IMG/VR virus record: IMGVR_UViG_3300046463_000356
Span: 1-38,630 of that record
Source: a virus
DNA length: 38,630 nt
Reading direction: 5' to 3' (one strand)
Both the position numbers and the translations under genes were made by a program. Below are positions 21,149 to 36,983 of this stretch, piece by piece. Below the pieces are notes generated by a model. The model was not told where the DNA came from, made no database searches, and worked only from the letters and a program-made list of their open reading frames with translations. The stretch's first letter is position 1, and every line of letters starts with the position of its first letter.

Positions 21149-22602
21149 TACTGCAAGACCAGATAAATGAAGCCCGCACCGGTTGCGGGATATTGATTGA
21201 TGTTGACCGGGATGTCGTCGAGCAAAGTCGTGAAATCGAGGGTCTGGCTGCTCACGGTCTGCGACACGCTGACCGTCCAGGTTGTGCCCGAACCCGACAC
21301 GATAAAGGTGTTGGCGCTGACGTCGCCCGTGCCGTTGTCCCGCACGAGTTGCCCTATGGCGATGCCGGTTCCCGATGAAACCGTCAGCGTGGTTCCGGCG
21401 ATCGAGCCTGTCGTTACGGCCGCGCCGCCCGAAACGCCGACCTTGATCGAGACGATCGCCGCCGACCATCCGGGAATGCTCTGCCCCGTCGTGCCGTTGA
21501 ACGTATTGCTGACGCCCGCGACATCGCCGTAGTAGCGGCTGGCAAAGACCGTCGAGCCGATTTTGGCTCGTGATCCGCCATCCGTTCCGAGAAATCCCGA
21601 GATGACCGCATTCTGCACCAGCGTCAGCGCATTCGACGGCACCTGCGGCGAATTCGCAATTGTCACGACGACGATCGTCGTCAGCGCAGTGGGTATCTCG
21701 AAAGTGATGTCATAGGTCGGAACCGGCGGCTGATAGGCCGGGTTCGGATCGGCCACCGTTATGGTCGTGTTGCCGACCATGCCGCAGCCCGGCATTTTGC
21801 GCGACAGGATCGCGGCGGCAATATCGGTCGACGTACCGCCGACGACGGCGATGTAGATCGAATGCGCCGCGACCGAGACGCCGCCAATCGTGACCGGCGC
21901 CGCCGTGTTGTTCTGCGCCGCATACACGTCGAGCACGTTCGGCGCCGCCGCCACAGCTGCGTAGATCGCGTTGAGCGGTCCCATGCTGTTGAGGCCGGTC
22001 GAAGCCGAGCGCCGCGCCTCGAACTGCGCCGGCGTCTCCGCGAGCCGCCCCAGCACCGCGCCGCCGGTTGGCGCAATCGTGTCCCAGCCGGGCACGGCCT
22101 GGTAGATCGAAAGACTCGACGGGCCGGCAGTCGGGCCGATGTTCTGGCAGGCAAAGTTGAGCGTCACGGTGCCGTTGAGCGCAATCGTGCCTTGTTCCTG
22201 GCAAATCCAGAGTGTCCCGGTCGGATCGATCGCCAGCGCGCCTACCGGGATCACGACACCCGTCAGGCCGGTGATGATGCACGGTTGCGCCGTGGCCGCG
22301 CCGGCAATGCGGGTGATGAAATAGATACGCGCGATGGCATCCTGCATCCGGCCAGACGAATAGGCCGGATCGACGAGGTTGGCGAACAGCACAAACATTG
22401 CATCGGCATCGCCGATGATCGCCGTCAGGCTCGACGCGATCTGCCCTTGCGGCGTCGAGAGTTGCGGGTTGAGGTTGCCGCCGAAGGCGCCGTTGAGGTC
22501 GGAGGTGACGCCGACCAATATCGCCTGCTCGTCGGGCGCGACAAAGCCGCGGTCGCCGAGAACCGGAAAGGGAACGGCAGTCGAGGGAACGGGCGAGGAC
22601 AT
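21148..22602 (-). CDS. Baseplate J-like protein with an inserted loop module
   Basis: 484 residues. A baseplate wedge component of the gpJ/gp47 family: [39 protein letters not shown] is the hallmark segment, and the C-terminal half carries strand-rich repeats. Residues about 396-456 are an extra module ([20 protein letters not shown], then [12 protein letters not shown]) that also occurs in the sheath and neck proteins here. Late baseplate order (J, DUF2612, fibre) is normal. Confidence 0.82.
   Translation of the reverse strand: [484 protein letters not shown]
21235..21417 (-). repeat. Loop module in baseplate J
   Basis: About 60 codons encoding [12 protein letters not shown], then [20 protein letters not shown], then [14 protein letters not shown]. 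Same strand pattern as the modules in the sheath and neck terminator genes. The copies are similar in protein and share short DNA stretches. Confidence 0.75.
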
Positions 22603-22617
22603 GCGGCTAGTACACTA

Positions 22618-22833
22618 TCACAAATCGGGTTTCTGTTGGAGTGATCGCTTCAAATCGTCAAGCTCATGCTGCACGTCGTCGAGGTGTTTGATGACCTTGC
22701 GCTGCTGCCGCTGCGGCGTGGCGCGGACGGGTTCGACAATGGGTGCCATGACGGGAGGCGCGGGCGGCTGGCAGAACGTCATGCCGGCTACGGCGCATGC
22801 CGAGATCGTCGGCCTAATGGGGATGCCCGCCAT
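22618..22833 (-). CDS. Small proline-rich protein, possible outer-membrane spanin
   Basis: 71 residues from ATG 22833; the frame is open further, but the upstream part is not protein-like. Short hydrophobic start (PTISACAVAGMTF) with cysteines, a proline-rich stretch (CQPPAPPVMAPIVEPV), then a basic and acidic helix. Proline richness, a near-lipobox ISAC and a 20-base overlap with a membrane/coiled-coil gene recall Rz/Rz1 pairs. The signal is short and no lipobox is fully convincing. Confidence 0.45.
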   Translation of the reverse strand: MAGIPIRPTISACAVAGMTFCQPPAPPVMAPIVEPVRATPQRQQRKVIKHLDDVQHELDDLKRSLQQKPDL

Positions 22834-23128
22834 CCTTAGCGACCAGAACCTTGATTTCCGTGATCTGATCCTTGATGTGATCGAGAGTTGCGGCCTGACT
22901 AGCCGCAGCAGCGATATTTTCTGTATGAAGCGCATTGTTGTCGCTCCGTATTTGCGCAACTGCGGCCTTGAGATTATCTACGTCGGCTCGCAACGATGAC
23001 ATCTTGTCGGTCTGCATATTTGCCCCGTTATAATAGACCGAAAGAGCAAGCGCGATCATGCCGACGAAAGTAAGGGCATTTCCAAGCGTAAGCGTTAACC
23101 GTCCTCTGGTTGCGCCCTCGTCTCCCAT
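22814..23128 (-). CDS. Membrane protein with coiled coil, possible inner-membrane spanin
   Basis: 104 residues from ATG 23128, with GGGGAGG five bases upstream. One membrane helix at about residues 14-34 (ALTFVGMIALALSVYYNG), then a long periplasmic-type coil (SSLRADVDNLKAAVAQIRSD to the end). This is the layout of an i-spanin. It overlaps the proline-rich gene downstream. However, it lies between spike and baseplate genes rather than beside the holin, so a virion role is equally open. Confidence 0.5.
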   Translation of the reverse strand: MGDEGATRGRLTLTLGNALTFVGMIALALSVYYNGANMQTDKMSSLRADVDNLKAAVAQIRSDNNALHTENIAAAASQAATLDHIKDQITEIKVLVAKDGGHPH

Positions 23129-23155
23129 GCGCCTCCCCAATGTTCATTTTTCCGC

Positions 23156-35802: not shown

Positions 35803-36053
35803 TTAGGGTCGTCCTCGCCGCTCGCGGACTTCCGGCGTGGGAGCCATCATATTTACTTCCACGATCGAAAGAGGCTTGCGCCAATGTGCCGCGACCGCCT
35901 CGTTTTGATATTCGCCATAGAAATCGGCATCGTAAAACCACGGCTCATCCGTGCCGCAGCCATACAAAAGCCGATCCCGCATCGCTTCCATTTTCCGCCA
36001 TGTCGTCGCACTCCAACGGAGCACTTTAAGCGGCCTTCCGTTTCGAGCATCAC
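35803..36053 (-). pseudogene. Small gene split between two frames
   Basis: From GTG 36053 the frame reads VMLETEGRLK and then loses sense. One base back, at CTTAAAGTG (36022-36030), the -1 frame continues as VLRWSATTWRKMEAMRDRLL and DEPWFYDADFYGEY, ending with RRGRP at 35803. Adding one A to the AAA run would restore one protein of about 84 residues. Upstream in the first frame WNEAATRAVVHSGISAFRR is also protein-like, but a stop cuts it from any start. Either an indel or a -1 slip. The 77 bases beyond its stop hold nothing I recognise. Confidence 0.45.
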
Positions 36054-36102
36054 GCGCCGAAAGGCTGAGATGCCAGAGTGGACGACCGCCCGCGTAGCGG
36101 CT

Positions 36103-36234
36103 TCATTCCATGCCTATATTGACCGTCAGGCCAGCGGAAACGAGCCGCTCCGGCAGCCAAAAGTTACCTCGGGTGATCTGACGTTCCGGGTCAAATACCG
36201 GATGAGCCAATGCGAAAACTGCTTGTTTGTGCAT
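36103..36234 (-). CDS. Short protein with strong ribosome site
   Basis: 43 residues from ATG 36234. AGGAGAGGAA directly precedes the start, the best ribosome site in the late region. Sequence: HKQAVFALAHPVFDPERQIT then RGNFWLPERLVSAGLTVNI. No family recognised. It directly follows the neck terminator gene and may be the 5' part of what became the split gene at 35803-36053, since GMEWNEAAT would read across if a base were missing. Confidence 0.5.
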   Translation of the reverse strand: MHKQAVFALAHPVFDPERQITRGNFWLPERLVSAGLTVNIGME

Positions 36235-36242
36235 TTCCTCTC

Positions 36243-36983
36243 CTATGCCGGATAAGCCGCATCGACCACGATCACGGTCGGCGTCAGCGTGTCGGCGAAC
36301 TGCTGCGGCGTGCTGACAATCGGATTGACCTGCATGCACGCATCCATCGACCAGCGCCATTCGTATTGCTGCTCGGCATTGACGAAGGCCGGCATCTGTC
36401 GCGCCTCGTTGCAATAGAGCGGCGCGATATCGAAGCCGCTCTCCGTGAAGGCATCCGTACCGACCTCGCTGCGGAACAGCGTATCGATCACGCGCACGTT
36501 GTCTGCGGCGCTCGGACCGTGGATATCGAGTTGCACTGTCCATTTGGTCGCAACCAGATCGGCGCGCACGCCGACATACATCGTCTCGCTCGCGACCGTC
36601 TGCGAGATGCTGACCGTATAGGTGCCCACGCCGCCCGGCGTGCCGGTCAGTTGCGCCACGATGATCGTGTTCGCCGCGATGTCGCCCGTCGTGTCGGCGA
36701 CTAGATTGCCAACCGCGAGCGCGCCGCGCGTGACATGGCTGATCGTCAGCACGGTAAGCGCGATCGCGCCCGTCATCACGCCATCGGTGAAATCGGTCTC
36801 GTTTGTATCGAGGCGTTCGAGGAGAAGCGGCGTCATCACGATGAAATCGGCATTGGCCGGCTCCGGCACGCGGTTGTTCTCGGCCTGGATAACCTCCGTC
36901 GCGCTCGGCACGAGGCTCGCGAGGAAGCCGCGCAGCGCGGTAAATTCCTGCGATTGCGTGAGGCTGAGGATGGGGAGGGGCAT
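36243..36983 (-). CDS. Neck terminator protein with inserted module
   Basis: 246 residues. Residues 40-66 ([20 protein letters not shown]) and 144-246 ([40 protein letters not shown]) match the phage neck terminator family (LIC_12616-like), which caps the tail or joins it to the head. The family is usually near 170-190 residues; the surplus is a loop module at about 68-136. It lies between the HTH gene and the small genes, in late operon order. Confidence 0.72.
   Translation of the reverse strand: [246 protein letters not shown]
36576..36782 (-). repeat. Loop module in the neck terminator
   Basis: Codons for residues 68-136: [51 protein letters not shown]. It is inserted exactly between DTNETDFTD and YVGVRADL of the family core and follows the same strand pattern as the sheath and baseplate J modules. 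Confidence 0.75.

Follow-up and report, generated by a model that had tools for sequence, protein, structure and literature searches.

The 38,630-base virus record IMGVR_UViG_3300046463_000356 of IMG/VR, which we call the window over its whole length, has a block of contractile-tail genes on its minus strand, and three of the virion proteins encoded there share a module of about 62 residues. The first is a baseplate J-like protein (J) of 484 amino acids (21148..22602, minus strand; PF04865 21.5 bits against a cut-off of 21.1, phrog_6 106.8 bits, E 2e-30), where the module occupies residues 398-455 (21238..21411, minus strand) near the C-terminus, a position referred to as site B. The second is a DUF3383 tail sheath protein of 667 amino acids (32821..34824, minus strand; PF11863 359.5 bits against a cut-off of 34.9, phrog_205), with module sequence at residues 165-306 and module DNA spanning 33907-34332 (minus strand) as a whole. 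The third is a phage neck (tail) terminator protein of 246 amino acids (36243..36983, minus strand; PF23961 67.9 bits against a cut-off of 27, phrog_1876 145 bits), in which the copy lies at residues 71-135 (36579..36773, minus strand). All three host cores score above the curated cut-offs of their families, and the sheath also has a sheath fold: its AlphaFold model has a predicted local distance difference test score (pLDDT) of 89, and its top Foldseek matches are the E217 and XM1 sheaths (E217, E 4e-25).

The copies are recognized by a profile of 62 columns built from 80 sequences, which gives 32-34 bits to the copy in J, 73 bits to that in the terminator and 82 bits to a complete copy in the sheath. 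No further open reading frame (ORF) of the window is significant against this profile, even with filters off. When module residues were shuffled, none of 448 proteins matched at E ≤ 10, and reversed sequences gave a single match (1 of 448, E 0.13). An earlier note on this DNA had described a shared unit in J, sheath and terminator and had proposed that a profile be built and searched against phage proteins. The unit is indeed present in all three, its copies are significant, and the search led to many further phage host proteins. Ten profile positions are near-invariant (I4, G17, G22, T34, G42, G44, G47, T48, Y49 and Q55), and the conserved residues are chiefly Gly, Thr, Tyr and Gln. The module is rich in Thr (21.6%), Gly (18.0%) and Ser (11.7%) and carries very little charge (D+E 2.0% and K+R 0.9% vs. 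7.2% and 5.3% in the remainder of the host proteins). A foreign base composition was rejected, as the G+C content is only about 3 percentage points above that of the rest of the host gene, which is uninformative.

Neither Pfam nor NCBIfam holds a model for the module, and no mention of the motif or of a named domain was found in the open-access literature. Two PHROG profiles contain it without marking it as a separate domain, PHROG 21413 ("unknown function"; E 3e-18) and PHROG 38233 ("tail fiber protein"; E 8e-15), and the "tail fiber" label does not fit the module. A similarity to Pfam FeoA (E 0.026) was discarded because it falls below the FeoA cut-off and is without structural support. Sequence comparison with the PDB gave chance-level matches only (YebT and a latrotoxin stretch at E 1.3).

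The earlier note had taken the sheath copies to be in tandem, but they are nested. A complete module (residues 188-251; 34072..34263, minus strand) interrupts another one, whose N-terminal half is residues 165-181 (34282..34332, minus strand) and whose C-terminal half is residues 254-306 (33907..34065, minus strand; 51 bits on its own stretch). Rejoined, the outer halves score 72.8 bits over profile positions 1-62, compared with 56.7 bits for the C-terminal half alone and at most 64.4 bits with random N-terminal halves (n = 60). A tandem repeat is thus ruled out, since the flanking pieces are the halves of one module. The inner copy is placed after the LTVTAV strand of the outer one, and one homologue (L095) is arranged likewise; in two others (L100 and L104) the inner copy follows the first strand of the outer copy. 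The nesting point therefore varies between lineages, with two different points of the outer copy being used. In the AlphaFold model of the sheath, the module region has pLDDT values mostly between 72 and 97 and contains long strands at residues 162-180, 183-204, 234-252 and 289-307, a prediction that would be consistent with a stalk-like nesting.

Homologues of all three host proteins without the module were found, and comparison with them, as the earlier note had suggested, located the insertion sites in J, sheath and terminator. The relatives compared are the best 80 matches of each scan, as ordered by their similarity to queries that bear the module, and shares among them are therefore not prevalences. 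In the terminator, the spacer measures 101.9 ± 2.1 residues with the module and 39.8 ± 1.7 without it, and because the difference of 62.1 equals one module, no host residues have been replaced. Terminators of related isolates align only outside the module. Between the same anchors, sheath homologues have 34 residues with no copy (L041), about 103-118 with one and 175-195 with two, and sheaths without the module are also found in cultured phages of Pseudomonas, Aeromonas, Xanthomonas and Burkholderia. At site B of J, the linker is 22-25 residues long without the module, about 84-101 with one copy and about 160 with two. A J protein 51% identical to that of the window (L080) and the J of a prophage of the soil bacterium Paraburkholderia elongata 5N instead have it at a different loop, site A, with none at B, and a further one (L256) has it at both, if weakly at site A (16.7 bits). 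J homologues thus have no copy, one or two, with either loop, both or none occupied. The copies are part of the host's reading frame, and in 90 of 91 adaptor, 68 of 73 head closure, 58 of 59 sheath and 35 of 36 terminator cases both ends of the protein are more than 40 residues away, while in the J and cement clusters they are closer to the C-terminus. The module is therefore an in-frame insertion, absent from homologues, in otherwise normal cores. The earlier note had described these hosts as normal but overlong family members and had named two outcomes that would speak against its proposal, segments integral to the cores and a lack of module-free homologues; neither was found.

Insertion has changed repeatedly in these families. 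In trees built by quick search, supported branches force at least seven changes of state in the J core and at least four changes of copy number (0, 1 or 2) in the sheath; for the terminator the best count is four changes, of which supported branches force only one. Recent copying between genes of one genome was considered and ruled out, because modules in different proteins are as similar within a genome (identity 0.439) as between genomes (0.440). Copies in the same protein of different genomes are closer (0.492), so that copies mostly descend with their host protein. Judged from these sequence comparisons, gain and loss take place at the scale of protein families and not via recent copying within a genome. 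For most close pairs, the module has a ratio of nonsynonymous to synonymous substitution rates (dN/dS) below 1, at roughly 0.1-0.3; values are erratic in a few pairs that have very few changes, and the pairs are not independent of each other. The module ratio is about twice that of the core in J and similar to the core in sheath and terminator. Such purifying selection argues against both a neutral filler and a fast-evolving receptor binder.

The inner sheath module modelled alone with AlphaFold (pLDDT 94.9, predicted template modelling score 0.80) is predicted to fold autonomously into a short beta-domain with long strands at its N- and C-terminal ends. Foldseek returned three matches at E ≤ 10 among 350,542 PDB chains, none of them with an immunoglobulin (Ig) fold, and no Pfam Ig family is matched; the immune-type binding that the earlier note had thought possible is not supported. 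The sole sensible PDB match is chain 8eci_1, a capsid chain of Arthrobacter phage Bridgette, and it is weak (E 0.24, template modelling score 0.57, 26% identity over 65 columns); the full sheath model aligns to the same chain over 71 columns (E 0.07). Bridgette 8eci_1 (124 residues) is a free-standing capsid protein, unlike the module, which is an insertion. Among modelled viral proteins, the module model superposes at 0.5-1 Å on P22 gp10-like, HK97 major capsid, side-tail-fibre and other phage proteins. The module also occurs, at 43-49% identity, in two proteins with collagen repeats (BFVD A0A1V0SCQ2 and A0A1V0SDM6) that are attributed to the giant virus Indivirus ILV1; this reflects either transfer or a mis-binned phage contig.

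The insertion point in the sheath maps to residues 148-161 of the Pa193/E217 sheath, within a flexible domain (91-210) that is apart from the core (23-90 and 211-491; PMC11042391), and additional sheath domains in general sit away from the tube (PMC9230969). As the module is predicted to fold alone and sits in a sheath domain apart from the tube-contacting core, it is likely a surface decoration of the virion. Of the spreading surface-decoration module that the earlier note had envisaged, the decoration is thus likely to hold, but the within-genome and between-genome identities given above leave no sign of recent spread among the genes of one genome.

Using the four window copies as queries for relatives, a scan of IMG/VR gave at least 599 viral pattern matches, of which at least 382 were confirmed. 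When 257 Gb of prokaryote genomes were scanned in nearly the same way, 20 matches and 9 confirmed cases resulted, and in a sample of the P. elongata family the module was present in 4 of 249 genomes, P. elongata included; the module is very rare in bacterial genomes. In cultured phages, tblastn found nothing at E ≤ 0.01 and one weak match (E 0.6), but the low-complexity filter probably masks the query, so isolates may carry the module. Altogether 651 modules were collected in 448 distinct proteins from 304 loci, 133 of which have at least two such proteins, and the proteins form 57 host-protein clusters. Annotated clusters include sheath, terminator, J, cement, head-tail adaptor, head closure, baseplate wedge, tail tube with an Ig domain, central fibre/tip J, collar fibre, tailspike, DUF4054 connector, a Dit-like protein and several head proteins, and the modelled viral proteins add the HK97 major capsid protein and the P22 gp10-like protein. 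Every annotated host cluster among the 57 is a virion protein, and none is cytoplasmic.

Several hosts can occur together in one genome. A near-identical record (G002, sheath 100% identical) reaches past the window and has two copies in a capsid cement protein (PF23982, 56 bits; G002:C1:13976-14332, L258:5887-6828), about 2.3 kb beyond the right end of the window by offset; the window thus ends before a fourth host gene is reached. In a more distant relative (G003) the hosts are a cement-like protein, terminator, sheath and J, and in another (G004) they are cement, terminator, J and fibre but not the sheath. Five ORFs of the P. elongata prophage together hold seven copies, namely a cement-like protein (three copies), terminator, sheath, J and a GDSL-hydrolase-containing protein. 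The last of these (L254:3954-5522) is encoded upstream of the cement-like gene, and its product is possibly a virion-borne esterase.

Some neighbouring features of the window were also recorded. Terminator and sheath genes, which adjoin or nearly so in many relatives, are separated here by a gene for a 290-residue protein (34853-35725, minus strand) with a match to phrog_673 ("head scaffolding") and a sub-threshold match to Laminin_G. A phrog_1830 protein (28737-29660, minus strand) is without the module, but a weakly Dit-like relative (L122:10053-11018) has one copy. An 850-residue fibre- or spike-like protein (23156-25708, minus strand) begins with a signal-peptide-like stretch, MIKKIVASIYMVFALSSFPINA, which is unusual in a phage tail protein. 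Long antisense open frames lie over the sheath and baseplate genes (32665-34908, plus strand, 747 amino acids; 26205-27551, plus strand, 448 amino acids) and are probably a by-product of the high G+C content.

Taken as an overall explanation, we consider it probable that a freely insertable surface domain coats the virion, and it may function in generic weak adhesion. A short, autonomous and nearly uncharged beta-domain would be carried as an in-frame loop insertion in many virion proteins. With copies in the neck terminator, in each sheath subunit (a nested pair), in J and, judging from the near-identical record, in the cement protein, the exterior of the particle would be studded from head to baseplate. 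The E217 tail has 204 sheath subunits (PMC10329688), and if this stoichiometry holds here, the sheath alone would display about 400 copies. Such a generic surface layer could provide weak, multivalent and non-specific contact with polymers of the host cell or the environment, and because it would be effective wherever it is placed, it would account for insertion at so many places. For the function by itself, we rank adhesion first, cementing second, shielding third and a passenger role last. Adhesion of this multivalent kind is a tentative choice to which we would give slightly less than an even chance, and a generic surface property is favored because the module is independent of location, varies in copy number, carries little charge and is under steady purifying selection. 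Some points weigh against the overall explanation. The conserved residues form neither an aromatic platform nor a charged patch to hint at a specific ligand site. The Bridgette fold neighbor leans, weakly, toward cementing over adhesion. Exposure on the outer face has a structural correspondence only in the sheath, from which it would extend to terminator, J and the other hosts by analogy.

Cementing, in which contacts of the modules with each other or with adjoining subunits would make capsid, neck, sheath and baseplate stiffer, is unlikely, if still the strongest competitor. Bridgette, the source of that only fold neighbor in the PDB, is reported to have dimeric capsid cement proteins (PMC13033339), relatives carry the module within a true cement protein, and selection has been purifying with no diversification. 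The extended sheath subunits of E217 are linked only via arms and beta-turns, so that extra contacts could matter (PMC10329688). However, copy number (0, 1 or 2) and the use of site A or B differ among homologues of about 50-60% identity, which is hard to fit with a fixed interface between subunits, and the hosts are very varied and include fibres and spikes. Fibres and spikes are also where a shield would bring little gain. An uncharged coat rich in Thr, Ser and Gly could reduce unspecific sticking or guard against proteases, as its composition, its very low charge and its placement, regardless of location, on many of the virion parts that one genome encodes would allow, and we hold this to be somewhat less likely again.

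That the module is a neutral or selfish passenger, a loop filler tolerated since it folds by itself, would fit with repeated gain and loss and with one copy nested in another, but we regard it as improbable. Most close pairs are under purifying selection, at about core strength in sheath and terminator and at about half of it in J, and the module has been retained in hundreds of phage contigs with differing sets of host proteins. No mobility gene or site signature was noticed either, though no systematic search was made. Convergence of non-homologous, low-complexity, beta-rich loops, for which the Thr/Gly-rich composition could speak, is scarcely credible in view of a 62-column profile with ten near-invariant positions that shuffled modules do not match, and of a predicted structure that superposes so closely on modules of other phage proteins.

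Ig-like domains are roughly 80-100 residues long, and in phages they are often added at the end of a protein, sometimes by programmed frameshift. The module, with 62 residues and no Ig match in the PDB, differs from them in being mainly an internal in-frame loop insertion that nests within itself, in being nearly uncharged and in decorating several components of one particle. It is similar to them in its sporadic presence in many kinds of virion proteins with module-free homologues. Phage Ig-like domains are described as sporadic in different virion proteins of unrelated phages and are thought to be surface-placed and weakly binding (Fraser, Yu, Maxwell and Davidson, 2006, as cited in PMC10684548 and PMC9230969). 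The additional domains of contractile sheaths are beta-rich and mostly Ig-like, with roles in adhesion or stability suggested (PMC9230969). Like these domains the module sits away from the tube-contacting core, but it is not confined to the sheath and is common to neck, baseplate and capsid proteins.

Among domains that spread over virion surfaces, those of the Ig-like kind in phages are the best-known case. The module is a second, apparently non-Ig domain of the same habit, found at more places on one particle. Natural homologues with 0, 1 or 2 copies per site offer ready-made pairs for testing surface decoration, and the insertions mark loops that accept a 62-residue domain in sheath, terminator, J, cement and adaptor proteins. 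The module also accounts for many annotations that are "unknown" or misnamed "tail fiber". A more far-reaching view, which we think doubtful, is that tailed phages use the module as a general-purpose coat element with a small non-Ig fold, whose self-association or shared ligand would join capsid, neck, sheath and baseplate, so that the whole particle would stick and not only its fibres.

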